A DNA stretch of 64,000 nucleotides, from NCBI RefSeq assembly GCF_003286415.2, contig NZ_CP043450.1, positions 2,108,001-2,172,000 on the forward strand, read 5' to 3'. The stretch comes from Mucilaginibacter rubeus (GTDB taxonomy: Bacteria; Bacteroidota; Bacteroidia; Sphingobacteriales; Sphingobacteriaceae). The notes below the pieces were generated by a model. It searched no databases. It was not told the origin of the DNA and saw nothing but the letters and a program-made list of their open reading frames with translations. Shown here piece by piece: positions 8,979 through 29,053 of this stretch (positions are counted from its first letter, which is position 1; each line of letters starts with the position of its first letter). The translations under genes and the position numbers were made by a program.

Positions 8979-9000
8979 GGGTTTTATTTTTTTTGATGAT

Positions 9001-9008: not shown

Positions 9009-9017
9009 CCATGCTTT

Positions 9018-9060: not shown

Positions 9061-9062
9061 AT

Positions 9063-11070: not shown

Positions 11071-11085
11071 GCTGAATGCCTGCCA

Positions 11086-11147: not shown

Positions 11148-11196
11148 CTAAAACATTGTTAGTTCAGTAATTAAAACATTTTAAAAAATTAAAGTT

Positions 11197-11277: not shown

Positions 11278-11300
11278 TTGGACATTAAAACCAGTTAATG

Positions 11301-11335
11301 AATGGGCGGCCTTTGGCTGCCCATTTTCGTTTTAA
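11301..11335 (+). terminator. rho-independent terminator after the 26-codon ORF
   Basis: AATGGGC (11301-11307) pairs with GCCCATT (11319-11325); inner GCC/GGC pairs with one G-T pair extend the stem around a TTT loop. It is followed by TTTCGTTTT. The GC-rich stem stands out in the AT-rich gap. Confidence 0.8.
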
Positions 11336-11623: not shown

Positions 11624-14620
11624 GTGAAAAAGGGAACCCTGTTAGTCACCGCGTTTATTTTTATTCAAACTTTTTGTTTCGGCAATAATATCTCAGCAAA
11701 GAATGATAATGGAGGTAAGTCAGTATACCAGGCCCGCCTGCAGGATTCGGACGCTGTTTATTTTACACCTGAAAATTTTAAGATCAAGGCCGATGGCAAA
11801 ACTGATGTTTCAGATGAACTGCAAGCTGCTGTTACCAAAGTAAAAACCGAGCATAACTTCGGCGTGCTTTTTATCCCCGAAGGAAAATACCTGATCTCCA
11901 AAACTATATTTATACCAACTGCTGTAAGGCTGATAGGTTATGGCAAAAACAGACCGCAGATTATCCTGGCTAAAAATTCGCCCGGCTTTCAAAGTGCTGA
12001 TGAAAATGATAAAGGCCACGCTAAGTACATGTTTTGGTTTGTAAGCAATCTTTCCAAACCTGGCGATGAGGTACATGATGCGGGCGCGTCAACTTTTTAT
12101 AGCTCAATATCAAACATTAACCTTAAAATAAATGATGGTAATCCTTACGCGGTTGCTATGCGCACCCATTTTGCCCAGCATAGCTTTATAGCTCATGTGG
12201 ATGTAAATATTGGCAAAGGACTGGCGGGTATGTTTGATGTAGGTAACGAAATGGAAGATATTCGCTTCTTTGGCGGCCAGTATGGCATCTATACCACCAA
12301 ACCATCACCTGGCTGGCAGTTTATGATGGTTGATACCTATTTTGAAGGGCAGCGAGAAGCTGCTATCCGCACACAGGAGGCAGGGCTTACCATTGTGCGG
12401 ATGAATGTTAAGCACGTGCCAACAGTAATCAGCATAAACCCAAACTACCATGAAAAATTATTTATGGAGGATTGCCGTTTTGATGGCGTAAGCGGACCTG
12501 CTATCATCATCAGTAATGAGGATAATGCTTTTAACCAGATCAACCTTCGCAATGTTGTTTGCCGTAATGTGCCTGTATTGGCCAGCTATCGTCGTAGCGG
12601 CAAAACAACACGTGGAACGGGGAATATCTACCGTGTAAAAAACTTTACTTACGGTTTGCAGATGGATGGTCTTGATGCCGATCCGCAATATAAAACCACC
12701 GATGAACAAGAACCTTTGACCGCGTTGCCGGAGGCCGCCAAAAAGGACATTCCCGATTTTCCGGCAATTGAAACCTGGGCAAACCTGAAAGCCCTCGGTG
12801 CTAAAGGCGATGGCGTTAATGATGATACACAAGCTATACAGGCAGCTATTGACAAATACGAAACCATATATGTGCCGCAAGGCTGGTATCGCGTTAGCCA
12901 AACTATTAAACTAAAGCCCGATACCAAATTGATTGGTTTAAACCCCATTGCTACACAGTTTTTAATTGCCGATAATACACCTGCTTTCGGAGGCTTTGGT
13001 GGGCCGGTAGCACTGCTGGAATCATCAAAAGGAGGGAGCAACATTTTAAGCGGTATTGGCCTTTGTACCAATGCCGATAATCCACGCGCTGTAGCCTGCA
13101 AATGGATGGCAGGCGCCGGTTCATATATGAATGATGTGAAATTTGTTGGTGGTCATGGCGGTATGCAACGTGTTGGCACGCCCAAAAGTACAGCTGGCGG
13201 TAGTGCCTACAATCGGGCACAAAATGGCATGGACCCCTCCTGGGATACACAATACTGGAGTCTTTGGGTAACAGATGGCGGTGGCGGTACTTTTAAGGAT
13301 ATCTGGAGTGCCAATACTTACGCCACGGCCGGTACTTATATTTCCAATACGCAAACTCCCGGTCGTATTTATGCCATGTCGATAGAGCATCACGTGCGTA
13401 ACGAGGTTCGGTTCAATAACGTTGCCAACTGGAAAGTATACGCCATGCAACTGGAAGAAGAAAGCAGGGAAAGTACCGAATGCCAGCCAATGGAATTGGA
13501 AAATTCAAGTAATATGGTGTTTGCCAACCTGTATATGTTCAGGGTGATCAGGGTTAACAAGCCCGCGCCGTATTCTATCAGGAAATGGGGCGGTAAAAAC
13601 ATCGAATTGCTGAATGTGCACAATTACAGCCAGATAAAATATACCACTACTTTGCCGCTATATGACATCAATACCGCTACCGAAGTAAGGCCATGGGAAT
13701 TTGCACGACTTTATATTGATGATAAAGCTAACACGGCCGAACAGCAAGGCGGCACTATCAATAAGCTTGCAACAGGTTTTGAATTTGCATCGGCGGTATG
13801 TGCCGATAGTAAAGGCAATATCTATTTCAGCGAGCAGCGCATGAAGCGGATCTATAAATGGTCGGCGGCGGATAAGCAGATTAGTTTGCTGGCTGATTAT
13901 CCATGGGAGCCGCTGTCCTTAGCTTGTGACAAAAATGATAACCTGCTTGTAGTTTTTAAATATGTGCCGAAGCCAGGCTATCTGGTAAACGGTAAGCCCG
14001 AGAAATTTGATAACCCTGCCGATGCTGCCGGCACCTCTTTCAGCGGATGGGGTAATTCGGGATTTGCAAGCTGGGCTTATAGTATCGACCCTAATAATCC
14101 CGATGAATCTATCCAAAAACTGAAAACCGTACCCATGGGGCAGGTAAACCCGGTTTATAAAGTGCTGTACCCGGCACACCGCTGGCGCGATTACCATGAT
14201 TTTAATATGGTAACAGTAAATAAGCCAACAGAGTGTTTTGTAGCGCCCGATGGGGTTACCATTATCCCGGCAGTGTATGATTTGGCCAGATCAACAGCAT
14301 TGGCAGCCGCATATCCCGGAAAGCCATTATACAGCAGTGATGAGTATGACAAACGTACCGTGAGCACAACGGTAACTAAGGATGGTTATCTTTCTGATTT
14401 GAAATATTTTGCCGAAAGGGGAGAGTTTGCCTCTGCAACCGATGATAAAGGAAATGTTTATATAGCCGACGGACAGATTTATGTATACGACAGCGCCGGT
14501 AAACAGATCAATGTGATAAAAGTACCCGAGCGGCCAACTGGGTTAGCGTTTGGTGGTTCGGACAATAATACTTTATATATTACGAGCCATAACTCATTGT
14601 TTTCCGTAAAAGTTAAATAG
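11624..14620 (+). CDS. secreted GH55-like double beta-helix protein with C-terminal propeller
   Basis: A GTG start gives 998 residues with a signal peptide (about 1-20). Two pectate_lyase_3-type beta-helix modules are visible: about 45-290, starting FTPENFKIKADGKTDVSDEL with LFIPEGKYLIS, and about 385-690, starting WANLKALGAKGDGVNDDTQA with IYVPQGWYRVS. Tandem helices are typical of GH55 (exo-)beta-1,3-glucanases. A third region about 715-998 (FASAVCADSKGNIYFSEQRM...) resembles an SMP-30/NHL beta-propeller. The protein should act outside the cytoplasm on a polysaccharide. It is followed after 22 bases by a membrane acyltransferase-like gene and then a chitinase. Catalytic residues could not be assigned with confidence. 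Confidence 0.7.
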   Translation: MKKGTLLVTAFIFIQTFCFGNNISAKNDNGGKSVYQARLQDSDAVYFTPENFKIKADGKTDVSDELQAAVTKVKTEHNFGVLFIPEGKYLISKTIFIPTAVRLIGYGKNRPQIILAKNSPGFQSADENDKGHAKYMFWFVSNLSKPGDEVHDAGASTFYSSISNINLKINDGNPYAVAMRTHFAQHSFIAHVDVNIGKGLAGMFDVGNEMEDIRFFGGQYGIYTTKPSPGWQFMMVDTYFEGQREAAIRTQEAGLTIVRMNVKHVPTVISINPNYHEKLFMEDCRFDGVSGPAIIISNEDNAFNQINLRNVVCRNVPVLASYRRSGKTTRGTGNIYRVKNFTYGLQMDGLDADPQYKTTDEQEPLTALPEAAKKDIPDFPAIETWANLKALGAKGDGVNDDTQAIQAAIDKYETIYVPQGWYRVSQTIKLKPDTKLIGLNPIATQFLIADNTPAFGGFGGPVALLESSKGGSNILSGIGLCTNADNPRAVACKWMAGAGSYMNDVKFVGGHGGMQRVGTPKSTAGGSAYNRAQNGMDPSWDTQYWSLWVTDGGGGTFKDIWSANTYATAGTYISNTQTPGRIYAMSIEHHVRNEVRFNNVANWKVYAMQLEEESRESTECQPMELENSSNMVFANLYMFRVIRVNKPAPYSIRKWGGKNIELLNVHNYSQIKYTTTLPLYDINTATEVRPWEFARLYIDDKANTAEQQGGTINKLATGFEFASAVCADSKGNIYFSEQRMKRIYKWSAADKQISLLADYPWEPLSLACDKNDNLLVVFKYVPKPGYLVNGKPEKFDNPADAAGTSFSGWGNSGFASWAYSIDPNNPDESIQKLKTVPMGQVNPVYKVLYPAHRWRDYHDFNMVTVNKPTECFVAPDGVTIIPAVYDLARSTALAAAYPGKPLYSSDEYDKRTVSTTVTKDGYLSDLKYFAERGEFASATDDKGNVYIADGQIYVYDSAGKQINVIKVPERPTGLAFGGSDNNTLYITSHNSLFSVKVK

Positions 14621-14642
14621 AACACCCCTAAATAAAAGCCAC

Positions 14643-15902
14643 ATGCAACAATTACCTAAGCGCCTGTTATCTATCGATGTATTGCGTGCCATCACCATGC
14701 TGCTGATGATATTTGTTAACGATGCCAGCGGTGTAAAGCATATTCCCGAATGGATAGACCATGCTAAGGGTTTTGAAGACAGGATGGGTTTTGCCGACAC
14801 TATTTTTCCAGCGTTTTTGTTCATTGTTGGCTTGTCGTTACCATTTGCCATCAATAACAGGATCAAAAAAGGTGATAGCGGCCGGCAGGTTTTGTTTTAC
14901 ATACTGATAAGGAGTGTCGCGTTGCTCATTATGGGTTTTTACCATGTAAACCTTGAAGATTATAATTCATCGGCTGCTATAATTCCGAAAGCAGCATGGG
15001 CACTGGTTATCACAACAGCGTTCTTCCTGATCTGGCTGGATTATCCCGAAACTATGGCAAAGGCTAAAAAGTATTCGTTGCAAATACTGGGGATCATTAT
15101 GCTGATAGCCATGGCCGTAATTTATAAAGGTGGCGAGGATGGTGAGGTACGGGGGATGGAACCATCCTGGTGGGGAATATTAGGTTTAATAGGCTGGGCC
15201 TACCTGGTTTGCGCGTTGATATTTTTCGCGGTTAAAGGCAAGTTAAACAGTCTTATCGTAGCATGGATAGTACTGATAGCCATTAATATTATCGCCCATT
15301 CGGTATTTAAGATAAAAGTAACACGTGATGAAGAAATGGTCACTATCGCTGGTAACGACGTCACCGGAAGTTTTCTTGGTAACGCGATTATCTTTTTAAA
15401 GCCACTCTGGATAATCCATGATGCCTCAACCATGAGCTTAACTATGGGGGGAGTGGTGATCTCTGGCATCTACGCCAGGCTGGTTGAACAAGGGAAAACA
15501 CAACGGATTTGGGCTACACTGGCTATTATTGGCGTTTTGTTCCTGATTGTCGGTTTTGCCTTACGACCTTATACCGAAGGGATTTCTAAAATTCGTTCAA
15601 CACCGGCATGGGTGCTCATTTGCTCGGGCATTACTACGCTGGCGTTTTTAATATTGATATATGTGGTTGATGTTAAAGGGAAAATAAGCGCCTTTAACTG
15701 GATCAAACCCGCCGGCACCAGTACGCTCACCTGTTACCTGATCCCGTATTTCCAGGTTTTTATACTGGAGTTATTTCATATTAATTATCCGAGTATTATT
15801 AACAATGGATTTCCGGGGTTACTGCGTTCATTCCTGACCGCCGTGGTTATTATTCTATTTGTCGGATTACTTGAAAAGAAAAGATTACGCCTGAAGATTT
15901 AA
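14643..15902 (+). CDS. DUF5009 / NagX-like membrane acyltransferase
   Basis: This 419-residue multi-pass membrane protein begins KRLLSIDVLRAITMLLMIFVND, the characteristic N-terminus of DUF5009/COG4299 proteins related to heparan-alpha-glucosaminide N-acetyltransferase. About ten hydrophobic segments follow. Eukaryotic relatives transfer acetyl groups across a membrane to glucosamine; bacterial NagX-like genes cluster with amino-sugar catabolism. Here it lies between a GH55-like protein and a GH18 chitinase, 22 and 23 bases away, and the nagB/PTS cluster is convergent nearby. Acetylation of a periplasmic amino sugar is an inference. Confidence 0.8.
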   Translation: MQQLPKRLLSIDVLRAITMLLMIFVNDASGVKHIPEWIDHAKGFEDRMGFADTIFPAFLFIVGLSLPFAINNRIKKGDSGRQVLFYILIRSVALLIMGFYHVNLEDYNSSAAIIPKAAWALVITTAFFLIWLDYPETMAKAKKYSLQILGIIMLIAMAVIYKGGEDGEVRGMEPSWWGILGLIGWAYLVCALIFFAVKGKLNSLIVAWIVLIAINIIAHSVFKIKVTRDEEMVTIAGNDVTGSFLGNAIIFLKPLWIIHDASTMSLTMGGVVISGIYARLVEQGKTQRIWATLAIIGVLFLIVGFALRPYTEGISKIRSTPAWVLICSGITTLAFLILIYVVDVKGKISAFNWIKPAGTSTLTCYLIPYFQVFILELFHINYPSIINNGFPGLLRSFLTAVVIILFVGLLEKKRLRLKI

Positions 15903-15925
15903 ATATTATACATACCTAAATTCTA

Positions 15926-17074
15926 ATGACAAACTTTGCATCATTATTGCGGCCGGGGCAATATAGAACCCGGCTGATGGCTTTCCTATGCCTTATACTT
16001 TCGGCAAACCTGGTTTATGCGCAGAAAAACCGGGCTAAAAATCATGTTATAATCGGTTATGTAAGTGGCTTTCGGGGGTTAATAGATACCAACATGGTTC
16101 ATCCGGCAAAGCTTACCCATATTAATTACGCGTTTGTAAATGTGATCGGGAACCGGGCTTTTCTTACCCACCCCCGAACAGATACCATCAACTTCAGGTA
16201 TTTGGTTGGATTAAAGAAAAAGAACACCGATTTGAAAGTTTTGATTTCGATAGGCGGGTGGCTGTGGAGCAAAAACTTTTCGGATATGGCGCTCACCGAT
16301 ACTTCGCGTAAGGCTTTTGCGGCAAGTGCTGTTGAATTGGTACGTAAGTTTAAAATGGATGGTATTGACATCGACTGGGAGTATCCCAATGAATCCGGCG
16401 CAGGTAACGTCCATCGCCCGGAGGATAAACAGAACTATACCAGTTTATTCCTGGAACTGAGGACTCAGTTGAACGCGCTTGAAAAAGAAACCGGTAAAAA
16501 ATTGTTGCTTACAGCAGCCGTAGGTGCCTTCAGGCATTTTGTGCAGAACACAGAAATGGATAAAGTAGGCGCTTGCCTGGATTATATCAACCTCATGACT
16601 TACGATTACGGTGCCGATGTAGCGGTACATCATACCGGCTTGTATGCTTCAAAGTATCTTAAGACAGAAAATAATTCGGATAATGGTACCCGGGTTTTTA
16701 TTGAAGCTGGTGTTCCGCGGAATAAGCTTGTTTTAGGGATGGCTTTTTACAGTCGTTCCACAAGAGTGTCGGACAGTACCAAAACCGGATTGGGTTCACG
16801 CAATCTTGAAAGGATGCGGGGCGGTGGTTATACTTTTATAAAAGATAGTCTGCTTACCAACAAAGCATTTAAATATTATCGGGATAAGAGTGCGAAAGCA
16901 CCGTATTTGTATAATCCCACAACCCGTCAGTTTTTATCATTTGACGATGAATGGTCAATTAAAAAGAAATGTCGGTACGTGAAAAAGAACGGCATGGCTG
17001 GGGTAATGTTCTGGGAATACGTAGATGATAGGAAAGAGTATTTGCTTGACGCCGCTAATAGTCATTTGAATTAA
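15926..17074 (+). CDS. secreted GH18 chitinase
   Basis: This 382-residue protein has a signal peptide (cleavage near VYAQ, residue 33). The GH18 TIM-barrel signature DGIDIDWEYP occupies residues 145-154, with catalytic acid Glu152 and supporting Asp148 and Asp150. The SIGGW motif (108-112) and the later MTYDYG segment and barrel-closing MFWEY motif are also present. It should hydrolyse chitin or chitooligosaccharides by substrate-assisted catalysis, in the periplasm or outside. It is the third gene of a GH55-like / DUF5009 / GH18 operon with gaps under 25 bases. No carbohydrate-binding module is visible. Confidence 0.93.
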   Translation: MTNFASLLRPGQYRTRLMAFLCLILSANLVYAQKNRAKNHVIIGYVSGFRGLIDTNMVHPAKLTHINYAFVNVIGNRAFLTHPRTDTINFRYLVGLKKKNTDLKVLISIGGWLWSKNFSDMALTDTSRKAFAASAVELVRKFKMDGIDIDWEYPNESGAGNVHRPEDKQNYTSLFLELRTQLNALEKETGKKLLLTAAVGAFRHFVQNTEMDKVGACLDYINLMTYDYGADVAVHHTGLYASKYLKTENNSDNGTRVFIEAGVPRNKLVLGMAFYSRSTRVSDSTKTGLGSRNLERMRGGGYTFIKDSLLTNKAFKYYRDKSAKAPYLYNPTTRQFLSFDDEWSIKKKCRYVKKNGMAGVMFWEYVDDRKEYLLDAANSHLN

Positions 17075-17129: not shown

Positions 17130-17142
17130 GGGATTGTGCGAT

Positions 17143-17246
17143 TCCTCTCTTGAGAGGGGCGGAGGGGTGTGTTTCTGCTTCGATAAGCTTGCGGCAGAAC
17201 ACACCCCTGCTACCCTCGCCCCTCCGCGCCCCCTCTCAAGAGGGGA
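17143..17246. repeat. large GC-rich imperfect inverted repeat between convergent genes
   Basis: The left arm (17144-17178, core GAGGGGCGGAGGGGTGTGTT) pairs with the right arm (17194-17246, AACACACCCCT ... CCCCTCCGC ... CCCCTCTC) with a roughly 10-base bulge and a 15-base loop. The arm ends CCTCTCTTGAGAGG and CCCTCTCAAGAGGGG are themselves palindromic. Composition is very unlike the surroundings. It resembles mobile intergenic palindromes common in this phylum and could also act as a terminator for the convergent chitinase and nagB genes. Confidence 0.7.
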
Positions 17247-17340
17247 GTTTTAAAATCCTTTGTTTATTTGATTCCTTAAGCTGAGGGTTATATTGTACCC
17301 GGTGGCCTGCTTTATAAAGTTCAGGTTGATTATAAATAAA

Positions 17341-18099
17341 TTACCAATTATAACCACGTTCTTTAGCGTAATCGGCTATTAAAGCGCCCGCATCCGCATC
17401 TAACAATATCTCGCAATTTGAATGTAGTTGTACTACAGATGCCGGGATATCCGTGGTTACAGGGCCTAATATGGCTTGTTTAATGATTTCGGCCTTATGG
17501 CTGCCTTTTGCTATCAGGATAAGCTTGCGGGTATGCATAATGTTTTTAACGCCACGGGTTAGGCCACCAAGTTCGGTTTCTGGTGGGACTTGAGTTTCAC
17601 GGCGTACGCGTGCTTCAAAATCCGGATCCATTGGTGATACCCAGGTTTCACTTTCAAAGGGCGTTCCTGGCTGATTGATGCCAATATGTCCATTACTGCC
17701 GATACCCAGCATCTGCAAATCGGCTCCGCCTCGCTCGGCAAGGCGTTTTTCAAACAGGATACTCTCTGCCACAAAATCATTAGAAAGGGTAGGCGGCATA
17801 ATAAAGTTTTTTTCAGGAATCCCCAGCGGACCGGCAATCTGGTTCAGGATCATGGTATAGCAACTGCCTGTGTATTCGCGCTCCAGGTTAGTGAGTTCAT
17901 CTACATTAAACAGGGTAATGTTTGATACATCAAACGGGTATTGAGCGTGAATTTCCGAAACAATGCGGTGCATCCCAATGGTAGTTTGCCCGGTTGAAAG
18001 GCCAATTACCGATGTTCGTTTTTCAAGCATCTGCGCTATGATGCGCCATGCCGCGGTGATATCAAATTCCTGCTCGCTTTTGGTTATAGTTACTTTCAT
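17341..18099 (-). CDS. nagB: NagB-like glucosamine-6-phosphate deaminase
   Basis: This 252-residue cytoplasmic protein has the NagB/6-phosphogluconolactonase fold: phosphate loop GLSTGQTT (33-40), NVDEL with Asp67 (equivalent to the proton-abstracting Asp72 of E. coli NagB), and GIGSNGHIGINQPG (132-145) with His138. The Asp-to-Asn change at 136 is normal in B. subtilis-type NagB, but the usual Glu of NEPG is Gln143 here. The enzyme would convert glucosamine-6-P to fructose-6-P and ammonia. It is the last gene after the PTS genes, 167 bases below ptsH with a large palindrome between. A galactosamine-6-P or other amino-sugar-P deaminase is an alternative. Confidence 0.85.
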   Translation of the reverse strand: MKVTITKSEQEFDITAAWRIIAQMLEKRTSVIGLSTGQTTIGMHRIVSEIHAQYPFDVSNITLFNVDELTNLEREYTGSCYTMILNQIAGPLGIPEKNFIMPPTLSNDFVAESILFEKRLAERGGADLQMLGIGSNGHIGINQPGTPFESETWVSPMDPDFEARVRRETQVPPETELGGLTRGVKNIMHTRKLILIAKGSHKAEIIKQAILGPVTTDIPASVVQLHSNCEILLDADAGALIADYAKERGYNW

Positions 18100-18125
18100 G
18101 TATAATTTCTATGCTTTTTAATTCA

Positions 18126-18249
18126 TTGCCGTTGACTTTAGTCAACGGAATAGTGACAAATAATTTAATGGCTTTAGCCGAATTGTTGCTTGTATTTGGG
18201 CTAAAGCCCGCTTACTGTTGCCTTTACCGTTGACTAAAGTCAACGGCAA
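18126..18249. repeat. 124-bp nested palindromic (REP-like) element between ptsH and nagB
   Basis: Terminal 23-bp arms at 18126-18148 and 18227-18249 are exact reverse complements of each other, and each is also nearly self-palindromic (CCGTTGACT-2-AGTCAACGG). Between them GGCTTTAGCC (18170-18179) and GGGCTAAAGCCC (18198-18209) form a second complementary pair, each again self-palindromic. The element can fold as one long hairpin or as four small ones. It looks like a REP/BIME-type unit and lies inside the PTS-nagB transcription unit. Confidence 0.8.
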
Positions 18250-18266
18250 CGAATAGCTTAGTTGTT

Positions 18267-18533
18267 TTAAAGTTCTTTAAGCTGTTTGGTGAAAAAATCA
18301 TCGATAATAACTGCTGCGCTCACTTCATCCTCGCCATCCATAATTACCGAAACGGTTTCGCCGCCTTTAATGCTCAGCGATAGGATATTAAGCAAACTGT
18401 TCAGTTTAACGGTTTTGTCGCCTTTTTTTAAACTGGTGGCCGATTTAAAGCCTTTTACCAGTTTAACAAGCTGGGTTGCCGGTCGGGCATGCATTCCCTG
18501 CGCCGATGTGATGATATAATCTTTGGTTATCAT
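18267..18533 (-). CDS. ptsH: PTS phosphocarrier protein HPr
   Basis: This 88-residue protein of standard HPr length carries the active-site segment GMHARPATQ with phospho-acceptor His15 and conserved Arg17. Ser46 is also present in KLNSLLNILSL at the position of the regulatory serine used by HPr kinase in Firmicutes; no HPr kinase gene is in the window. HPr passes phosphate from Enzyme I to EIIA. Its start overlaps the end of ptsI by 4 bases, giving tight translational coupling. Confidence 0.95.
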   Translation of the reverse strand: MITKDYIITSAQGMHARPATQLVKLVKGFKSATSLKKGDKTVKLNSLLNILSLSIKGGETVSVIMDGEDEVSAAVIIDDFFTKQLKEL

Positions 18534-20242
18534 TGGGTTATCTCCTTTAAATAAGCAATAACGTTTTCTGAACTATCCATGGCCATTACCTGTTGGCATA
18601 CCTGCTTAGCTGTTGCTTCGCTATTATTAATGATGATGTTTTTAATTGCTGGAATGGAGGCAGCACTCATGGAAAACTCTTCAAGCCCCATGCCTAATAA
18701 TAACAGGGTTGCCAGCGGGTCGGAGGCCATCTCGCCGCACATGCCCACGTGTATGTTATGCGCACGGCCTTGTTCAATTACATTCAGAATGAGACGTAGT
18801 ACACCGGGATTAAACGGATCGTACAGGTGGGTGATCTTTTCATTCATCCTGTCTACAGCCAGGGTATACTGGCAAAGGTCGTTGGTGCCAATACTGAAAA
18901 AGTCCACTTCTTTAGCAAGGATATCCGCCGTAACAGCGGCTGACGGAATCTCGACCATGATCCCAACCTTCACATCATTGTTGAATGCGACACCAGCTTC
19001 AAACAGTTCGTTTTTTGCTTTATTCAGGATGAATTTCGCTTCGCGAATTTCTTTTACGTTAGAGATCATGGGGAACATGATACTAACCGATCCAAATGCG
19101 GAGGCCCTTAAAATGGCTTTAAGCTGCACAATAAATAAACCTTCCTGATCGAGCGAAATACGGATTGCACGATAGCCAAGAAAAGGATTAAGTTCGGTTG
19201 GTAAGTTGAAGTATGACAGGTGTTTATCGCCACCTATATCAATGGTTCGTATAACTGTAGGTTTGCCTTTTGCCTGTAATACTGCTTTTTTATAAAACTC
19301 AAATTGTTCCTCTTCATCCGGGAATGTATCTCGATCCATAAACAGCATTTCGGTACGGAAAAGGCCAACACCTTCGCCGCCGTTATCGTGCACCATAGCC
19401 AGGTCATCGGCATCCGAGATATTGGCCAATAGGGTTACCTGTTTACCATCGGCGGTAATGGCAGGCTTGTCTTTCACCGTTTTTAATACCTCGGCCTGTT
19501 GCCTGAAGGAGGCGGATTTAGCCGAGTATCTGCTAATAATATCCTCGCCTGGGTTAACATAAACCGAACCGCTGAGGCCGTCTAAAATGATAAAGTCGTT
19601 ATGGTTGATAGTCATTAACTCATCGCCGCAGGCTACAACCGCAGGCAGCCCTTTTGATTTGGCTATGATGGCCGCGTGCGAGGTGCGGCTACCCGCCTGT
19701 GTTGCAAACCCGGTGACAAGGTTCAGGTCTAAAGTGATCGTATCAGAAGGAGTGAGGTCATCGGCAATAACAATGGTATCCGGCTCAAAAGAGCGGTTAT
19801 TGGTATCGCCTGTACGGTTGATGTATTTGAGGATCCGGTTACCGATATCCTGAAAATCAGCCGAGCGGGCACGCATATACTCATCATCCATGCTTTCAAA
19901 CAGGGCGACAATGCCGGCGGTAACTTCTATCATAGCATCGTTCGCCGTCTTTTTCTCTTCTTCAATTTTAGCTACCACATCTTCACGAATCTGCGGATCA
20001 TTGATCAGCTCCACCTGTGTTTCCAGTATAGCTATGTCATCATCATTGAGCATCAGTTGCGAGTTGTTCTTGATGGCATCGATCTCGGCAAGCGCGTTGA
20101 CAACCGAAATGTCAAAGCGTTCAATTTCCGCTACTATCTCAACCTGGTTTTTTAAAACAATACCGTTGGTGGCAGGCGCGTTTTTTTTAATAACAAACGC
20201 CCTTCCTATAGCAATGCCCGGTGAAACTCCAATTCCCTTCAT
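18530..20242 (-). CDS. ptsI: PTS Enzyme I (phosphoenolpyruvate-protein phosphotransferase)
   Basis: This 570-residue protein is full length for Enzyme I. It begins KGIGVSPGIAIGRAF; the phosphohistidine domain has GSRTSHAAIIAKSKGLPAVV with His189 at the same number as in E. coli. The PEP-binding barrel has GLFRTEMLFMDR, a GxGxNDLCQYTLAVDR-like segment (FSIGTNDLCQ) and the CGEMASDP cysteine loop. It takes phosphate from PEP and passes it to HPr. It lies 12 bases downstream of the fused IIC-IID gene and overlaps ptsH. All key residues appear intact, so it should be active. Confidence 0.96.
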   Translation of the reverse strand: MKGIGVSPGIAIGRAFVIKKNAPATNGIVLKNQVEIVAEIERFDISVVNALAEIDAIKNNSQLMLNDDDIAILETQVELINDPQIREDVVAKIEEEKKTANDAMIEVTAGIVALFESMDDEYMRARSADFQDIGNRILKYINRTGDTNNRSFEPDTIVIADDLTPSDTITLDLNLVTGFATQAGSRTSHAAIIAKSKGLPAVVACGDELMTINHNDFIILDGLSGSVYVNPGEDIISRYSAKSASFRQQAEVLKTVKDKPAITADGKQVTLLANISDADDLAMVHDNGGEGVGLFRTEMLFMDRDTFPDEEEQFEFYKKAVLQAKGKPTVIRTIDIGGDKHLSYFNLPTELNPFLGYRAIRISLDQEGLFIVQLKAILRASAFGSVSIMFPMISNVKEIREAKFILNKAKNELFEAGVAFNNDVKVGIMVEIPSAAVTADILAKEVDFFSIGTNDLCQYTLAVDRMNEKITHLYDPFNPGVLRLILNVIEQGRAHNIHVGMCGEMASDPLATLLLLGMGLEEFSMSAASIPAIKNIIINNSEATAKQVCQQVMAMDSSENVIAYLKEITQ

Positions 20243-20254
20243 TTATGTTTTTCT

Positions 20255-21847
20255 TTATGCAAACAGGTGGATAATACTCCCTGCAAAACCAAGCAACAGC
20301 AGGCCTAATAACAGGTATGTGGTTTTAATATTCTTTTTAACAAAATAATACACTAAAAAAGTAAGTCCCAACGGTATCATGGCAGGCACTACCTGGTCTA
20401 AAATGCTTTGAACGCCCACTGCGGATTTTTCTGTGCCGATATGTAATGGTGTAGTGATGTTCATGAGCGTTACCGGCATAGCCCCAACAACCATCAGCCC
20501 TAAAATAGATGAGCCTTTAGTGAGTCTGTCCATTACATTATTTTTGGCCAGGTTTTGCAAAAAGCGGGTGCCTGCATCGTAGCCCACAAAGGTTAGTTTA
20601 TAACGTAGCAGTAGATGTGGAACATTAAATATGAGCAGGAACAACAATGGCCCCAGGATATTGCCTTTAATAGCCAGCGATGTTCCAACCCCGGCGGCAA
20701 TCACTTTAAATGTGCCCCAAAACAAAGAGTCGAATACTCCGGCCAGTGGTCCCATCAGGCCCAGTTTTACCGAGTTGATAGATTCTTCATCGAAATCTTC
20801 GTCATTACTGTTTTGCTCTTCCATGGCAGCCGTGATGCCCATTATTAATGTAGAACCGTATGGACTGGTATTAAAAAATTGCAGATGTCTTTTCAATGCC
20901 GCCGCCATGGCCTCTTTGGTATTGTAAAGCTTTTTAAGAACCGGGATAATGGAAAACGCGAAGCCGGTATTTTGCCAGGTTTCAAAATTGAAATTGGCTT
21001 CCAGCGCCAGCGAACGAAAGAACAGCATCCGGATATCACGTTTGCTAAGCTTTGGATTTGGTTTTATTTGCTTTGCCGGTTCTTCATCGAATCCAAAATC
21101 ATCATCATCATCTTCATCTGTGACAGGTTTAGAGGCAACCTGGGTTACCAATAAAGCAATAATAACGCCTAAGCCGCCAATGGCTATTACCGGTAATTTC
21201 AAGTAAGCCGCTAACATAAAACCCAGGAAAAAATAAGGGGCCATGTTTTTATTGAACATGAGGTTCATGAGCAGCGCGAAACCTAATGCGGGCAGCATAT
21301 TGCCTGCAACCTGTAAGCCTGTTTGTACCCACGCCGGTATCATGTCCAAAAATGTTTTCATAGCGCCGGCACCTAATTGCAGCGCAAGCATAATGATAAT
21401 GCCCATGAGCACCGGCCTCAATAGGCCTGAAATGATATGCAGGCGTTGAATGCCTTTAAATTCACCATCTTCGGCATATTGATTGAACTTTTTATTGAGC
21501 ATAGCCCGCAATACAAACAAACCACTGATCACCATTTCGGCCAGTATGGAAACAGGTACGGCTATGGCCAGTGCAATTGCGGGGCCTTTACCTGAGATGA
21601 TAGCAAACGCGGTACCCAGTACGCCACCCGTGATCACATCAGGAGGTATAGCTGCGCCAACCTTGATGTTTCCCATGAATATGAGTTCAAGCGTAGCACC
21701 GATGATCACGCCCTGGGTTACGTCGCCAAGCACCAGGCCAACCAGCGGGCCAAGCACCAGGGGGCGGCTAAGCAGGGTAGTGCCCAGAAAATCTTCCGAA
21801 TGTCCAAACATCGCTATCAGCGCGATGAGTAAGTATGATACTGACAA
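20255..21847 (-). CDS. fused PTS mannose-family EIIC-EIID permease
   Basis: This 530-residue membrane protein combines two subunits usually encoded separately. Residues about 1-240 are EIIC-like (multi-pass, with PLVLGPLVGLVLGD and GATLELIFMGNIKVGAAIPPD). An acidic linker follows (TDEDDDDDFGFDEEPAKQ, about 245-262). Residues about 265-530 are EIID-like (SKRDIRMLFFRSLALEANFNFE, HLQFFNTSPYG, GLMGPLAGVFDS, FVGYDAG). Together they form the sugar channel of a mannose/glucosamine/GalNAc/sorbose-family PTS. The reading frame is continuous through the linker, so this is a fusion and not two ORFs. IIB lies 42 bases upstream and ptsI 12 bases downstream. The exact sugar cannot be read from sequence; nagB points to an amino sugar. 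Confidence 0.93.
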   Translation of the reverse strand: MSVSYLLIALIAMFGHSEDFLGTTLLSRPLVLGPLVGLVLGDVTQGVIIGATLELIFMGNIKVGAAIPPDVITGGVLGTAFAIISGKGPAIALAIAVPVSILAEMVISGLFVLRAMLNKKFNQYAEDGEFKGIQRLHIISGLLRPVLMGIIIMLALQLGAGAMKTFLDMIPAWVQTGLQVAGNMLPALGFALLMNLMFNKNMAPYFFLGFMLAAYLKLPVIAIGGLGVIIALLVTQVASKPVTDEDDDDDFGFDEEPAKQIKPNPKLSKRDIRMLFFRSLALEANFNFETWQNTGFAFSIIPVLKKLYNTKEAMAAALKRHLQFFNTSPYGSTLIMGITAAMEEQNSNDEDFDEESINSVKLGLMGPLAGVFDSLFWGTFKVIAAGVGTSLAIKGNILGPLLFLLIFNVPHLLLRYKLTFVGYDAGTRFLQNLAKNNVMDRLTKGSSILGLMVVGAMPVTLMNITTPLHIGTEKSAVGVQSILDQVVPAMIPLGLTFLVYYFVKKNIKTTYLLLGLLLLGFAGSIIHLFA

Positions 21848-21889
21848 TTTTGTTAGGTTGTTGTTTGTTAGTTTGTTAGATATGTTTAT

Positions 21890-22360
21890 TTAAATCAGGT
21901 TTGCTACAAGTTGTTTGTTATCAGTAGGTACCTGCCTTACTTCAAGCTCAAGGCCTTTTGCCAGCATTTCGCGAATGATAGCTATATCATCGTCATTAAC
22001 TGCTATCGCTTTTGAGATCAGCTTTGAGCCGTCTTTTGACCGTAAGCCACCGAAGTTGATTGTTGTTATTTCGGGCACTTCCACTGCCAGTGCGGCTGCA
22101 TCCTTAACGCTATTGATCAGGATTAAAACTTTCGCGTTTTTGCTTTTCTCGTCATTTAAAAAAGCGGCCGCCTCTTTTATCGGTTTGATCAATAGCTTGG
22201 TGCCTGCCGGTTTTGCAAGGCCGAGGGTCATCTTCATAAACTCATCCTTGGCCACTTTGTCGTTGGCAATCAGCAGGCAATCGGCACCAAGCGCAGGCGT
22301 CCATGTAAAAGCTACCTGGCCATGTACCAACCTGTCATCAATACGGGTTAGCTTAATCAT
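21890..22360 (-). CDS. PTS mannose-family EIIB subunit
   Basis: This 156-residue cytoplasmic protein has the N-terminal motif RIDDRLVHGQV with phospho-acceptor His13, diagnostic of mannose-family IIB. The rest shows the alternating strand/helix pattern of the family, including TTINFGGLRSKDG, a variant of the usual NVGG loop. It receives phosphate from EIIA and gives it to the sugar entering through IIC-IID. Its start overlaps the end of the IIA gene by 8 bases. Confidence 0.93.
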   Translation of the reverse strand: MIKLTRIDDRLVHGQVAFTWTPALGADCLLIANDKVAKDEFMKMTLGLAKPAGTKLLIKPIKEAAAFLNDEKSKNAKVLILINSVKDAAALAVEVPEITTINFGGLRSKDGSKLISKAIAVNDDDIAIIREMLAKGLELEVRQVPTDNKQLVANLI

Positions 22361-22790
22361 TTTCTTCCTCTTGGTTTTGCGCGGTTAAAAGTTTATTTAC
22401 ATATACCATTTGTTGCTTAGCGTTTTCAATAGCTTCGGCAATTACTTTTTCTGCGGGAGTGTTCGCATCAGCCAATATAATTTCAATGACCAGCGGCAGA
22501 TTAAAGCCCGAAACCACATGTACGTTAGGCTGCAGGGCATATTGCAGGATTTGATTAGTAACACTGCCCCCCATGATATCCGAAAAAACAATCAATTCAT
22601 CATTGTCGCCAATTTGATCAACTACCGCTTTGATATCATCTTCTAATGAGCGGTTTTCATCAACATAAGCTTCAATCAAAAAAATGCTATCCGCAGTGCC
22701 GGTAATAATATCAAGCGACGATTTTATGCCACCTGCAAGCTTGCCATGCGTTGCTATTAGAAATTTTCTTGTGCTTCCGGTATTCTCCAT
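22353..22790 (-). CDS. PTS mannose-family EIIA subunit
   Basis: This 145-residue cytoplasmic protein has ATHGKLAGG with phospho-acceptor His15 near the N-terminus and the later SDIMGGSVTNQ motif, both typical of mannose-family IIA. It carries phosphate from HPr to IIB. It is the first gene of the operon IIA-IIB-IICD-ptsI-ptsH-(nagB). A good promoter match lies 64-94 bases upstream. The C-terminus ends in an acidic tail (QNQEEEND) without a fused IIB domain, unlike E. coli ManX. Confidence 0.93.
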   Translation of the reverse strand: MENTGSTRKFLIATHGKLAGGIKSSLDIITGTADSIFLIEAYVDENRSLEDDIKAVVDQIGDNDELIVFSDIMGGSVTNQILQYALQPNVHVVSGFNLPLVIEIILADANTPAEKVIAEAIENAKQQMVYVNKLLTAQNQEEEND

Positions 22791-23166
22791 CGATAATTAA
22801 GGTTTTTATATCCGCGTTTAAGGTCGCGGAGCTTTCATAATTGGTTTATATATGAAAATTAATCTTTTGCAATTATCAGTCAAACTTTATTCAATTGCTA
22901 TTTTGAAGGCACTACAACACCACTACTGTAATTTATTGTGCCGATTTCGGCTATTGAAGAAGTTTGAAGGCATATAATGAAGTTCGAGGTCATAAGTTCG
23001 GAGTTTTAAGTCAAAAGCCTTTTGACTTTGGACTTTGAACTATTGACTTATCAGTAGTGCTAATGTAGGGGCATGAAAATATCCATCAGCAACTTTATGT
23101 TTTAGCTTTGAAACGGGATACAAAACGCTTTCCTGCCAACCATTTTATAATTCCTTAACTTTATAT
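22791..23166. other. divergent intergenic region between PTS operon and GH9 gene
   Basis: This 376-base region holds the PTS promoter (22854-22884) and a run of short related words near 22978-23050 (GAAGTTCGAGGTCATAAGTT, GGACTTTGAACT), including the dyad AGTCAAAAG-C-CTTTTGACT at 23009-23027. No clear promoter for the GH9 gene was found, and no gene or RNA was recognised. Confidence 0.5.
22854..22884 (-). promoter_or_regulatory. Bacteroidota-type promoter of the PTS operon
   Basis: On the minus strand TTTG (22884-22881) and TAATTTTC (22861-22854) are exactly 19 bases apart, matching TTTG-N19-TAnnTTTG except for the last base. Transcription would start near 22847 with a leader of about 57 bases before the EIIA start. 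Confidence 0.6.
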
Positions 23167-25020
23167 ATGAACCTAAAAAAGCGTATCGATCTTCTTTCGG
23201 CTATATGCAAAAAGTGTTGCCTTGTTTTAGCAGGATTGCCATTTATTGTGCAGGCACAAAGTATTAAAGTGGTAACCAATCATGTAGGTTACGAGGATAA
23301 TAAGGCCAAACGCGCCATTATAGTTGCGGATAGTCATCTTGCCTTTACATCATTTAACCTTATTGATGCTGATAAAGGAAATACTGCATTTACCGGGCAA
23401 ATCAACTACAGCGGGCCCGTGAACAAATGGAAGAACTTTGAATTTTGGACGCTTGATTTTAGCGGTTTTACAAAACCGGGGGCTTATAAAATCCAATTTA
23501 ATTCACCTAAGGGTGTTATTTCATCTTACCCCTTTATTATTGGTAAAAACGTGCTTGAAAAAGCAACCATATCTGATGTGGTGTATTACTTTAAAGGACA
23601 GCGAAGCTCCGGCTTGTTAGATAAAGCCGATCATCATTTGGTATTATCAGGAACAACGGACACTGTTGACGCGCACGGCGGTTGGTATGATGCCACCGGC
23701 GATTATGGCAAACATCTTTCACACCTGTCATTCTCTAATTATTTTAATCCGCAGCAAATCTCATTAACGGCTTTTAGTCTGTTCAAAACCTATGAGTTGT
23801 TAAGCGCGCGCCCCGGAACTGATTTCAGACAGTTTAACAGGCGGATTTTAGATGAGGCTATGTATGGAGCCGATTACCTGGTAAGGATGCAGGCGAAAAA
23901 CGGCTCTTTTTACCGTTCTGTTTCTTCGCCCGGACCCGGTAAGTTACCTAAAGACCGCGTAATTCAGGCGAATGAAGGTAACTACCGGATCAAGCAAACC
24001 AAAGATCAATCGTTCACCAAAACCACAACCGGTAAAAACTGGCGCAGTTATCAAGCCAGTTATCGTTCGGGTGCAGGGATTTCTATCGCCGCGTTGGCAA
24101 TGGCATCAGCTTACCAAACGTCGGGAGAGTTTAGCAATGCAGATTACCTGAAGGCCGCTGAAAATGCCTTTGCCTTTTTGGAAAAGGAAAACCCGCAAAT
24201 GGATTATGATAAAAAGGAGAATATCCTTGATGATTATTGTGCTTTAAGCGCCGCGACTGAGCTTTACAAGGTAACTCATAAAGAGATATACAAAACAGCA
24301 GCCGAAAAACGGGCAAATAATCTGCTCAATCGCTTGAGCTCCTGGAATAAGTATCAAAACTTTTGGCGTGCCGATGATAAAGACCGGCCTTTCTTTCACC
24401 CTTCAGATGGAGGGCTGCCGGTTGTTAGTCTGCTGTATTACTACCCATATGCTGCTGCCGATCTGCAGGCAAGGATCAAATTGGCAGTAAGGAAGTCAAT
24501 GGAGTTTGAGTTAGCTATCACACATGAAGTAAATAATCCCTTTGGCTATAGCCGCGAATTGGTGCAGGATACTTTGGGCAACCGCCATAGTGCTTTCTTT
24601 TTCCCGCATGGCAGTGATGCTTCTCCCTGGTGGCAGGGAGAAAATGCAAGGCTTGGTTCAGTAGCTACAGCCGCGCGGATGGCTGCAAACCTGTTTAAGG
24701 ATGATAAAACTTTTCATGACCAGCTTTCAGGTTTCGCTATTGATCAGCTTAACTGGATTTTAGGATTGAACCCATTTGATGCCAGTATGCTGCAGGGTAC
24801 AGGGCATAACAATCCGGCGTATGGCTTTTTTGGCACGTTTGAATATACCAACGCGCCGGGCGGTATTGTAAATGGCATTACCTCGGGCTTTGATAATGAG
24901 GATGATATTGACTTTAATATTCCCTATGCTGTGTCGGGCAAAGACTCGGACTGGCGCTGGGCCGAGCAATGGTTGCCGCACACGGCCTGGTACCTACTGG
25001 CGGTTTCAACAAGCGATTAA
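23167..25020 (+). CDS. secreted GH9 family glucanase
   Basis: This 617-residue protein has a signal peptide (about 1-30, ending VQAQ). An N-terminal immunoglobulin-like CelD_N domain (about 33-125) is followed by the GH9 (alpha/alpha)6 barrel. GGWYDATGDYGKH (171-183) carries the paired catalytic aspartates Asp175 and Asp179, and the C-terminal segment WAEQWLPHTAWYL has the likely acid Glu600. The GLNPFDASMLQGTGHNNP segment is also typical. It should cleave beta-1,4-linked glucan or a related glycan outside the cytoplasm; chitobiose- or glucosamine-releasing GH9 enzymes exist, so a chitin-related role is possible. It begins a plus-strand run with redoxin and ThuA genes. Confidence 0.9.
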   Translation: MNLKKRIDLLSAICKKCCLVLAGLPFIVQAQSIKVVTNHVGYEDNKAKRAIIVADSHLAFTSFNLIDADKGNTAFTGQINYSGPVNKWKNFEFWTLDFSGFTKPGAYKIQFNSPKGVISSYPFIIGKNVLEKATISDVVYYFKGQRSSGLLDKADHHLVLSGTTDTVDAHGGWYDATGDYGKHLSHLSFSNYFNPQQISLTAFSLFKTYELLSARPGTDFRQFNRRILDEAMYGADYLVRMQAKNGSFYRSVSSPGPGKLPKDRVIQANEGNYRIKQTKDQSFTKTTTGKNWRSYQASYRSGAGISIAALAMASAYQTSGEFSNADYLKAAENAFAFLEKENPQMDYDKKENILDDYCALSAATELYKVTHKEIYKTAAEKRANNLLNRLSSWNKYQNFWRADDKDRPFFHPSDGGLPVVSLLYYYPYAAADLQARIKLAVRKSMEFELAITHEVNNPFGYSRELVQDTLGNRHSAFFFPHGSDASPWWQGENARLGSVATAARMAANLFKDDKTFHDQLSGFAIDQLNWILGLNPFDASMLQGTGHNNPAYGFFGTFEYTNAPGGIVNGITSGFDNEDDIDFNIPYAVSGKDSDWRWAEQWLPHTAWYLLAVSTSD

Positions 25021-26177: not shown

Positions 26178-26186
26178 TTGATATCG

Positions 26187-26939
26187 ATGAGCAAGCTGAA
26201 ATATTTTGTAAATACACTAATTCTGCTGTTATTGATAAATATTGCTGTTGCGCAGCAATATAAATTCAGAGCTTTGGTGGTGATTTCCCGGTCAGATGAT
26301 CACATTAAAATGATGACCGCCGCCAAACCGTTTTTCGAAAAGTTGGGTGAGGACAACCATTTTAAAGTTGATTATACCGACGATTCAAGCAAGATCAATG
26401 ACGAAAACCTAAAGAATTACCAGGTATTTGTGATGATGCAACTGGCGCCCTTTGATATTTCATACAGTCAGCAGGCCGCTTTGCAAAAGTTTGTTGAGCA
26501 AGGGAAAGGTTGGGTCGGGATTCATGGTGCGGGTTTAACCGGAACGGAGTTTTTGGCTAAAAATACCAAATACTGGAAATGGTTTGAGGATTTTATGGGA
26601 GGAGTAGTGTATTCGCCGCATCCGGCTTATCAAAAAGGAGCTGTTATTGTGGAAGACCGGCAACATCCGGCCACCAAAAATCTGCCTGCTAAATTTGAGA
26701 TTTCTGATGAATGGTACGAGTTTGATAAAAGCCCGCGGCCCAATGTGCGTGTTCTGGCTACCGCCGACGAATCAAGTTATAAACAAAACAAGCCAATGGG
26801 TGATCATCCCATTATCTGGACGAATGAAAAATACCGCCGCATGATCTATATCGGTATTGGACATGATCCATCGGTATTCACCAATCAAAGTTATATAACA
26901 CTGCTCAGGGATGCTATCCTTTGGGCGGGATCAAAATAA
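26187..26939 (+). CDS. ThuA domain-containing protein 1
   Basis: The ATG at 26187 (MSKLKYFVNTLI) gives 250 residues with a signal peptide ending VAQQ; an upstream in-frame TTG directly after the previous stop is less likely. The class I glutamine-amidotransferase-like ThuA fold shows KNYQVFVMMQL, GKGWVGIHGAG, DEWYEFDKSPRPNVRVLATADESSY (in part) and GDHPIIWTNEKYRRMIYIGIGH. ThuA was first linked to trehalose/sucrose utilisation in rhizobia, but the reaction is unproven. It is exported here. Three paralogs lie within 7 kb. Confidence 0.85.
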   Translation: MSKLKYFVNTLILLLLINIAVAQQYKFRALVVISRSDDHIKMMTAAKPFFEKLGEDNHFKVDYTDDSSKINDENLKNYQVFVMMQLAPFDISYSQQAALQKFVEQGKGWVGIHGAGLTGTEFLAKNTKYWKWFEDFMGGVVYSPHPAYQKGAVIVEDRQHPATKNLPAKFEISDEWYEFDKSPRPNVRVLATADESSYKQNKPMGDHPIIWTNEKYRRMIYIGIGHDPSVFTNQSYITLLRDAILWAGSK

Positions 26940-26964
26940 AATCATCAACCTGTAAACAATCACC

Positions 26965-27723
26965 ATGAAAAAAATAGTACTGATATTAAGTTTTTGCCTG
27001 TTAACCGTTGTAAGCGCCTGGGCGCAAAAAGCCCCGCGCTTTAAAGTGATTGCCCTTTATGAAAACGGCGGCCACCATATTGAGTATTCAAAAGCAGCTA
27101 AAGTATGGCTGGACAAGCTGGCTGCTGATAATAATTTTTCTATCGATTATATTCAAACTACTGATACAATTGATAGTGCGTTTCTTTCTAATTACCAATT
27201 GTTTATCCAGCTGGACTACCCGCCCTATGCCTGGAAAGAAAAAGCGGTTAAAGCATTTGAAAAATATATTGACGAAGGCAAGGGAGGCTGGATTGGTTTT
27301 CACCATGCAACCCTTTTGGGCGAGTTTGACGGTTACCCAATGTGGAACTGGTTCTGGAATTTTATGGGCGGTATCCGTTTTAAAAATTACATAGCGACCT
27401 TCGCCAAAGGCACCGTCAATGTCGAGGATAAAACCCACCCGGTAATGAAAGGCGTGTCACCATCCTTCCTGGTTCAGAAGGAAGAGTGGTATACTTATGA
27501 TAAAGATCCGCGGCCTAATGTGCATGTACTGGCATCGGTAGATGAATCAACTTATGAGCCTAAAGATGGCATTACCATGGGCGATCACCCGGTTGTATGG
27601 ACTAACCCTGCAAAAAAAGCCCGCAACGTTTATATTTTTATGGGCCATTCGCCGATACTTTTTGAGAGTAAGGATTATACCACGCTTTTCAGCAATGCTA
27701 TTTTCTGGGCAGCTGAAAAATAA
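26965..27723 (+). CDS. ThuA domain-containing protein 2
   Basis: This 252-residue exported protein (signal peptide ending AWAQ) has the same ThuA landmarks as its neighbours: NYQLFIQLDYPPYAW, GGWIGFHHATLLG, KEEWYTYDKDPRPNVHVLAS and GDHPVVWTNPAKKARNVYIF. It is closest by eye to the minus-strand ThuA gene at 32287-33084, sharing the LDYPPY, GFHH and PRPNVHVLAS segments, so that pair looks like a recent duplication. It lies 25 bases after ThuA 1. Activity is unknown; a sugar-related role is inferred from the setting. Confidence 0.85.
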   Translation: MKKIVLILSFCLLTVVSAWAQKAPRFKVIALYENGGHHIEYSKAAKVWLDKLAADNNFSIDYIQTTDTIDSAFLSNYQLFIQLDYPPYAWKEKAVKAFEKYIDEGKGGWIGFHHATLLGEFDGYPMWNWFWNFMGGIRFKNYIATFAKGTVNVEDKTHPVMKGVSPSFLVQKEEWYTYDKDPRPNVHVLASVDESTYEPKDGITMGDHPVVWTNPAKKARNVYIFMGHSPILFESKDYTTLFSNAIFWAAEK

Positions 27724-27753
27724 TATTCAACAAACCTAATTGTGTTCACAACC

Positions 27754-28275
27754 ATGATGAAAAAGCTATTGTTCTTGTGTCTTTTACTTATGCCTCTCAT
27801 GTCTATAGCACAGGGGAATACATCGCCTATTTTGCTGCAAATGCGTAATGGGAAAGTTTATTTTGACAATGTTTACGCTCTGAACCCAACTTTTAAAAAA
27901 GCTGATCTTTATACCAAAGCCTTGAATTGGTTTAAGGGCGATGAAAAGACAATAACTGTAGCTAATGAAAAGAAAGGCGAAGTCGTCGGTACTTATACCA
28001 CCAGGGTTAACATAGGTAATACCGGTAATTACTATTTTGTAAGGTTTGTGGTTGATGTGATAGTTTACGACGCTACTTATGAGGTCAAGGTTTTTGATAT
28101 ATATGAAAAGCCAATTGAAAAAGGCATCTCAAACGAATATTCAAAGATAGAATACCGCTGGTGGGATTTTAGGCGGGGCAAGCCGTGGTCGGCAGATGAT
28201 GAGCCATTGTTTAAAGGGGTGAGCTCCACTGTAAATAGCATAATGGATTCGCTTGGTAATGAAATGAATAAATAA
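27754..28275 (+). CDS. DUF4468-like exported protein (TBP-like fold)
   Basis: The start at 27754 (MMKKLLFLCLLLM) is preferred over a GTG at 27742 because it begins a clean signal peptide ending SIAQ. The mature part, about 155 residues, has a DUF4468-like pattern: YTKALNWFKG, then GEVVGTYTTRVN and strand-rich YYFVRFVVDVIVYDATYEVKVFDI (given in part). No catalytic motif is visible. It sits between two ThuA genes and is probably co-transcribed. Function is unknown and the family call is tentative. Confidence 0.6.
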   Translation: MMKKLLFLCLLLMPLMSIAQGNTSPILLQMRNGKVYFDNVYALNPTFKKADLYTKALNWFKGDEKTITVANEKKGEVVGTYTTRVNIGNTGNYYFVRFVVDVIVYDATYEVKVFDIYEKPIEKGISNEYSKIEYRWWDFRRGKPWSADDEPLFKGVSSTVNSIMDSLGNEMNK

Positions 28276-28294
28276 TCCAGTTGAAGTATTTGTA

Positions 28295-29053
28295 ATGAAG
28301 AAATTGATATATACTACCGTGTTTCTGTTGGTGATATTTTTGGCGGTTGACACTGCTTTTGCACAGCAATCTCAATTTAAAGTACTGGCCTTATACTCCA
28401 CCAATGTTGAAAGCGATCACGTTGATTTTGCCATGGACGCCATAAAGTTTTATGGCAAAATGGCTAAAGCAAAAGGCTTTGCATTTGACACCACAAGCAA
28501 CTGGGCCGACCTGAACGATAAAAAATTAAAAAATTACCAGGTAGTTATTTGGCTTAATGAGTTTCCGCATAATCAGGCGCAAAGAAGCGCGTTTGAAAAG
28601 TTTATGGGCAACGGCGGTTCTTGGTTGGGTTTCCATGTATCTGGCTATAACGATAAGTACACCAAATGGCCATGGTTTGTTGATTTTTTAGGAGCAACAT
28701 TTTATAATAATAACTGGCCACCGCTGCCCGCCAAAATGATTGTGGACGATAATACGCACCCGGTTACCAAAAGTCTCGGTAAAAGCTATGTTGCTCCTAT
28801 AAACGAGTGGTATGGTTGGAAGCCTAATCCGCGGGATAATAAAGATATTAAAGTACTGGTAACGCTTGATCCGGCTAATTACCCGTTGGGTAAAAAGGAT
28901 ATCATTCGTGATGGCGATATTCCTGTGGTATGGACTAATACCAAATACAAAATGCTATATATGAACATGGGGCATGGCGATCTGATATTTACCTCGCCCG
29001 AGCAAAATCAAATGTTTGAAGATGCTTTGCTATGGTTGGCCGGGAAAAAATAA
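28295..29053 (+). CDS. ThuA domain-containing protein 3
   Basis: This 252-residue exported protein (signal peptide ending AFAQ) is the most divergent ThuA paralog: NYQVVIWLNEFPHN, GGSWLGFHVSGYND, NEWYGWKPNPRDNKDIKVL and GDIPVVWTNTKYKMLYMNMGHGD. The overall layout matches the other copies but several histidines differ (GFHVSG against GFHHAT). It ends the plus-strand run and is followed by a perfect bidirectional terminator. Function unknown; a role in carbohydrate metabolism is inferred. Confidence 0.82.
   Translation: MKKLIYTTVFLLVIFLAVDTAFAQQSQFKVLALYSTNVESDHVDFAMDAIKFYGKMAKAKGFAFDTTSNWADLNDKKLKNYQVVIWLNEFPHNQAQRSAFEKFMGNGGSWLGFHVSGYNDKYTKWPWFVDFLGATFYNNNWPPLPAKMIVDDNTHPVTKSLGKSYVAPINEWYGWKPNPRDNKDIKVLVTLDPANYPLGKKDIIRDGDIPVVWTNTKYKMLYMNMGHGDLIFTSPEQNQMFEDALLWLAGKK

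Follow-up and report, generated by a model that had tools for sequence, protein, structure and literature searches.

Does a Bacteroidota genome hold a complete sugar-transporting phosphotransferase system (PTS), and if so, what does this system carry? The question is raised by six open reading frames at positions 17341–22790, all on the minus strand, of a 64,000-nucleotide stretch of the genome of the soil bacterium Mucilaginibacter rubeus (contig NZ_CP043450.1, positions 2,108,001 to 2,172,000; this whole stretch is called the window below). They encode IIA, IIB, a IIC-IID fusion, Enzyme I (EI), HPr, and a NagB-like protein. By its testable sequence features, the system is a mannose-class PTS in a new arrangement, with IIC fused to IID, an EI and HPr of its own, a divergent NagB-like enzyme, and a link to a glycoside hydrolase of family GH9. 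Phosphorylation, the substrate, and the NagB-like reaction are predicted here from gene content and protein families, and on these grounds it is fairly probable (about 0.6) that the six genes constitute a self-contained phosphoenolpyruvate (PEP):amino-sugar PTS, whose cargo would be glucosamine or a close N-substituted relative, deaminated inside the cell by the NagB-like enzyme.

Composition and integrity of the operon

Pfam assignments of all six operon proteins exceed the curated cut-offs, and the domain set of the mannose class (Man family; PF03610, PF03830, PF03609, PF03613) is complete (Table 1). The phospho-histidines of IIA (His15), IIB (His13), EI (His189), and HPr (His15) are all in place and do not vary across 40–41 orthologues (40 out of 40 for both the IIA and the IIB residue). 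These observations bear out the preliminary description of the locus, which had reported a complete mannose-family PTS in one operon with all four histidines intact. HPr Ser46 is also invariant in the orthologues compared, even though a search of the genome for an HPr kinase by the Hpr_kinase_C domain yielded no match; HprK-based regulation is rejected for this reason.

The same description had placed all six genes at overlaps or gaps of less than 45 bases. This holds for the five PTS genes (IIA and IIB overlap by 8 nucleotides, IIB and the IIC-IID gene are separated by 42 nucleotides, the latter and the EI gene by 12 nucleotides, and the EI and HPr genes overlap by 4 nucleotides), but not for the NagB-like gene, located 167 nucleotides past HPr. 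The membership of the NagB-like gene in the operon is supported by the HPr–NagB gap being shorter than 40 nucleotides in most relatives. Moreover, the order IIA-IIB-IICD-EI-HPr-NagB is the same in 39 out of 39 complete loci from the genome search, and likewise in complete loci outside Mucilaginibacter, and hence the arrangement is not a matter of chance. The long gap in the window contains a long inverted repeat, and a second such element lies at positions 17131–17258, the pair thus flanking the NagB-like gene. Since gaps of 180–200 nucleotides between HPr and NagB recur in a few close relatives, these elements may be mobile repeats.

Both halves of the IIC-IID fusion align with solved ManY/ManZ-type chains, and the permease domains are complete and strongly conserved. 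An acidic linker is seen at about residues 240–262; the predicted structure of the fusion is poor overall (mean predicted local distance difference test score, pLDDT, 65.5), with low confidence at residues 239–262.

The Mucilaginibacter genome (7,632,803 bases, one contig) encodes a single IIA-Man, IID, HPr, and EI, every one of them in the operon, and thus the suggestion that the general and sugar-specific components form a self-contained set is upheld at the level of the whole genome. Similarly, Dyadobacter and Flagellimonas genomes have one EI and one IIB each, located in the operon. An own EI and HPr would let the operon function in genomes without any other PTS.

Table 1. Features of the operon and its surroundings in the window (Pfam and NCBIfam matches with E-values where given).
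Feature	Positions	Strand	Evidence and remarks
EIIA, mannose class	22353..22790	-	PF03610, E 3e-16; best NCBIfam model AgaF-like; phospho-His15
EIIB, mannose/sorbose class	21890..22360	-	PF03830, E 6e-46; phospho-His13
Fused EIIC-EIID permease, 530 residues	20255..21847	-	PF03609 at residues 4-232, PF03613 at residues 266-529
Enzyme I	18530..20242	-	TIGR01417, E 2e-196; PF05524, PF00391, PF02896; phospho-His189
HPr	18267..18533	-	PF00381, E 7e-22; phospho-His15, Ser46
NagB-like protein, distinct subfamily	17341..18099	-	PF01182 match; Gln143 where NagBs usually have an active-site Glu
Inverted-repeat element between HPr and NagB-like genes	18121..18254	.	33-nucleotide arms, 91% complementary
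Intergenic region between the GH9 gene and the operon	22791..23166	.	both promoters presumed here from geometry; divergent layout kept in most relatives
GH9, exo-glucosidase/glucosaminidase subgroup, secretion-type N-terminus	23167..25020	+	PF00759/PF02927; divergent from the operon
GH18, chitinase-like	15926..17074	+	PF00704, E 3e-76; linked in close relatives and some others

Candidate cargo and the NagB-like enzyme

In the proposed pathway, GH9 acting outside the cytoplasm (with GH18 or GH20 in some species) would trim glycans derived from chitin/chitosan, or similar ones, down to monomers. EI would be phosphorylated by PEP, the phosphate would be relayed via HPr and IIA to IIB, and the fused IIC-IID would move the amino sugar, most likely glucosamine, over the inner membrane, delivering it as a 6-phosphate, from which the NagB-like enzyme would strip the amine to yield fructose 6-phosphate. 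The amino-sugar reading is supported by the intact component set in near-invariant order, the sole EI and HPr here and the single EI and IIB in Dyadobacter and Flagellimonas, the co-occurrence of the NagB-like protein with IID together with the GH9 linkage and GH18 or GH20 in some loci, and the amino-sugar-like cargo of the nearest characterized permease type, Gfr (PMC12675984).

Within the genus, the NagB-like protein and IID share 41 genomes, with one exception each way, both in fragmented assemblies. Of all operon components, the NagB-like protein is the best conserved. GH9 genes, of which the whole 7.63-Mb genome has four, are found near 41 out of 52 full-length loci (18 out of 23 outside Mucilaginibacter; these are related species, not independent cases), GH18 genes, in 14 out of 52 loci, and GH20 genes, in some. 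The linked GH9s belong to two distinct sequence types and occur in several orientations. For both types, the best solved-structure matches are exo-acting enzymes of Vibrionaceae; the window GH9 is homologous to them over the full length (PDB 3h7l, 5dgq, 6gdt; E about 1e-130) and is 41% identical to VC0615, with the equivalents of catalytic D140/D144/E546 kept. For one of these Vibrionaceae enzymes, both chitosan oligosaccharides and beta-glucosides are substrates (PMC6096475). No full match to the Bacteroidetes-type promoter consensus was found in the region 22791..23166. ThuA-family genes recur with GH9; several of them cluster beside it, and in other species ThuA and GH9 are fused (window positions 26178–29053 and 32287–33084; locus L112, positions 4691–7312; locus L105, positions 14328–16919).

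Several observations weigh against the amino-sugar reading. GH9 is not nearby in 11 out of 52 full-length loci, and residues Tyr148, Trp220, and Tyr232, which contact the sugar C2 in the Vibrio GH9, are mostly not kept in the linked GH9s (none out of three in the window type, and the Tyr148 equivalent alone in the other type), hence glucosaminidase activity should not be assumed. The NagB-like protein scores under every curated NagB cut-off (128.7 vs. 236.9 bits for TIGR00502 nagB), and in 65 out of 65 orthologues Gln occupies the position matching Glu148 of Escherichia coli NagB (Gln143 in the window protein). Finally, in a metagenome-assembled genome (MAG), SZAS LIN-48 (locus L122, positions 8995–11318), the IIC-IID gene adjoins the NagB-like gene, with no IIA, IIB, EI, or HPr between them (the gene row is GH9, a redoxin gene, IIC-IID, NagB-like), and neither IIB nor EI was found in this 4.8-Mb assembly. 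Here, the permease may act without phosphorylation, the system may be in decay, or the assembly may have gaps.

Structure comparison of the predicted model assigns the NagB fold to the NagB-like protein (mean pLDDT 78.1, active-site loops being weak), and Asp67 and His138 are kept. Glu at the position of the Gln is present in four out of five other NagB-family proteins of the genome, in AgaI, in a Subdoligranulum homologue, and in two solved NagBs, the fifth, lactonase-like protein of the genome having Phe; the signature of the subfamily also includes Thr40, Leu69-Thr70-Asn71, and Trp153. In E. coli NagB, Glu148 contacts catalytic His143 (PMC4008608), and in Giardia NagB, it is listed as not conserved (PMC4281351). 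As the latter also lacks a conserved Glu148, the replacement of Glu by Gln alone neither proves a new reaction nor excludes activity. Judging from the alignments, the NagB-like protein is not an ordinary NagB; it represents a subfamily of its own, whose active site is altered. The earlier argument that a NagB-like deaminase points to an amino-sugar substrate thus stays plausible, with the deaminase amended to this subfamily.

The changed active site also enters the best of the alternatives, which we nevertheless regard as rather unlikely, namely, that the operon encodes a PTS of the Gfr kind taking up glycated amines (Amadori/Heyns compounds, e.g., glucoselysine), with the NagB-like protein being a deglycase that replaces the SIS proteins GfrE/GfrF. 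The cargo of Gfr, fructoselysine and glucoselysine, is imported and phosphorylated, and two deglycases then cleave it (PMC12675984). In the permease tree, the Bacteroidota sequences make up a separate, long-branched clade, and their nearest relatives outside it among the sequences compared are Gfr-like. The search for outside permeases covered a plasmid collection, so that closer chromosomal relatives may exist; the closest ones there, from Gfr-type operons of Enterococcus raffinosus, E. faecium, and Klebsiella, are 45–54% identical (IIC 45–47%, IID 49–54%), compared with roughly 27–39% for the Aga and Man types. The closest outside loci sampled mostly lie beside SIS proteins, whereas queries with Klebsiella GfrE/GfrF-like proteins and AgaS matched no SIS deglycase either in the window or in 112 Bacteroidota loci, which come from two sets with species in common, and the NagB-like gene occupies the place of the Gfr SIS deglycases after the PTS genes. 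On the other hand, identity of about 50% does not fix the substrate, and the regular GH9 linkage, with GH18 or GH20 in some loci, suggests glycan breakdown. A related proposal, likewise rather unlikely, is that in a phylum-specific branch of the PTS the rewired NagB-fold enzyme takes the role of the unrelated SIS deglycases, its substrates being N-substituted glucosamine 6-phosphates, either from glycated amines or from a modified unit of chitosan.

The uptake of glucose or another neutral hexose freed by GH9, with the NagB-like protein playing an accessory or regulatory role, appears improbable. It would agree with the beta-glucosidase activity of the Vibrio enzyme (PMC6096475) and the dissimilar C2-contact residues of the linked GH9s, but the NagB-like protein tracks IID and is better conserved than any other component, and no enzyme of neutral-sugar metabolism was seen to recur likewise. 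A mainly regulatory chain, which would sense PEP, phosphorylate targets, and transport little sugar, is very improbable, as, despite HPr Ser46 being conserved as in regulatory HPr, the permease domains are complete and strongly conserved, and the Hpr_kinase_C search gave no kinase.

Distribution and history in Bacteroidota

The nearest named loci are those of Mucilaginibacter gossypiicola, M. kameinonensis, and M. endophyticus (96–97% over IIC-IID). The operon IID was found in 42 out of 150 genomes of the genus (29 out of 118 good ones), in eight out of 251 genomes and three out of 25 genera of the family, and, above the cut-off, in none of 394 other genomes sampled evenly across the phylum. 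A scan of 84,980 species genomes with two short peptide patterns revealed at least 72 loci, a lower bound given this method, 71 of them titled Bacteroidota. Most come from Mucilaginibacter; the others are from Pedobacter, Daejeonella, Hufsiella, Chitinophaga, Puia, Ferruginibacter, Dyadobacter, Chryseolinea, Flagellimonas, and Allomuricauda, as well as from MAGs. A system restricted to the genus is therefore rejected. One locus (L128) belongs to a contig titled Beijerinckiaceae, where the operon occurs together with SusC, SusD, and GH9. Because of the SusC and SusD genes, this is probably a misbinned Bacteroidota contig, and a true alphaproteobacterial copy is rejected, the long branch leaving some doubt.

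According to a 2008 survey, the PTS is absent from Bacteroidetes (PMC2405797), a statement that the complete sugar PTS described here contradicts. Together with the even phylum sample, the survey agrees with the rarity of sugar PTSs in Bacteroidota noted in the preliminary description; the idea of the PTS as a simple alternative to SusC/D import fares worse, since two Pfam-checked loci have SusC alongside, and one of them also SusD. We found no description of this Bacteroidota PTS operon in the open-licence literature searched.

In the tree of IIB, IIC-IID, EI, and NagB, Chryseolinea serpens pairs with a Ferruginibacter MAG, and C. lacunae is placed near Flavobacteriaceae. The constraint uniting both Chryseolinea was rejected (approximately unbiased, AU, test, p 4e-15), as was a clade consisting of Mucilaginibacter only (p 0.0067), Pedobacter miscanthi being nested inside; the groupings tested were picked after the tree was seen. 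The distant placement of the two Chryseolinea species suggests operon transfer between lineages within Bacteroidota. A recent acquisition by this genome is rejected, as the GC content is flat across the operon and the flanking genes are kept in close relatives. Hence the proposal of a unit gained by transfer is retained for apparent spread within the phylum, but not for a recent arrival here.

Taken together, a whole sugar PTS is packed in one operon, apparently moved between Bacteroidota lineages, and tied to an enzyme that probably trims glycans. The operon also brings to light a branch of the NagB family in which the active site is unusual and invariant.

Comparison with known systems

Fusion of IIC with IID is not unique to this operon, as an independent fusion, placed away from the Bacteroidota clade, is encoded on a plasmid of Ligilactobacillus acidipiscis (locus L157, positions 3875–5557), in a mannose-class PTS adjoining transaldolase. 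With GfrABCDEF of Salmonella and Gfr-like systems of Enterococcus and Klebsiella, the operon shares mannose-class IIA, IIB, IIC, and IID, arranged alike, and, after them, enzymes acting on the imported phospho-amino-sugar. In Gfr, however, IIC and IID are separate, EI and HPr are not part of the operon, a sigma-54 regulator is located upstream, and the enzymes are SIS deglycases. The enterobacterial (N-acetyl)galactosamine PTS, AgaVWEF/AgaBCD-AgaI, is also of the mannose class, AgaF is the best NCBIfam match for the window IIA, and AgaI, a NagB-family protein, follows AgaBCD; at that, permease identity is 27–35%, IIC and IID are separate, the operon is devoid of EI and HPr, and AgaI retains the Glu. 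ManXYZ of E. coli belongs to the same permease family, the solved ManY/ManZ aligning with both halves of the fusion, but identity is 29–39%, IIA is fused to IIB rather than IIC to IID, and the general enzymes are encoded elsewhere.

The enzymes around the transporter show the same mixture of likeness and difference. NagB deaminase and the NagB-like protein have the same fold, and the equivalents of Asp72, His143, and Lys208 are conserved; the window protein differs by Gln in place of Glu, Thr40, Leu69-Thr70-Asn71, Trp153, and scores below the curated cut-offs. Similarly, the linked GH9s resemble the Vibrionaceae enzymes PBPRA0520, VC0615, and VP2484 in full-length homology (about 41% identity to VC0615) and catalytic residues, and differ from them in the residues near the sugar C2.

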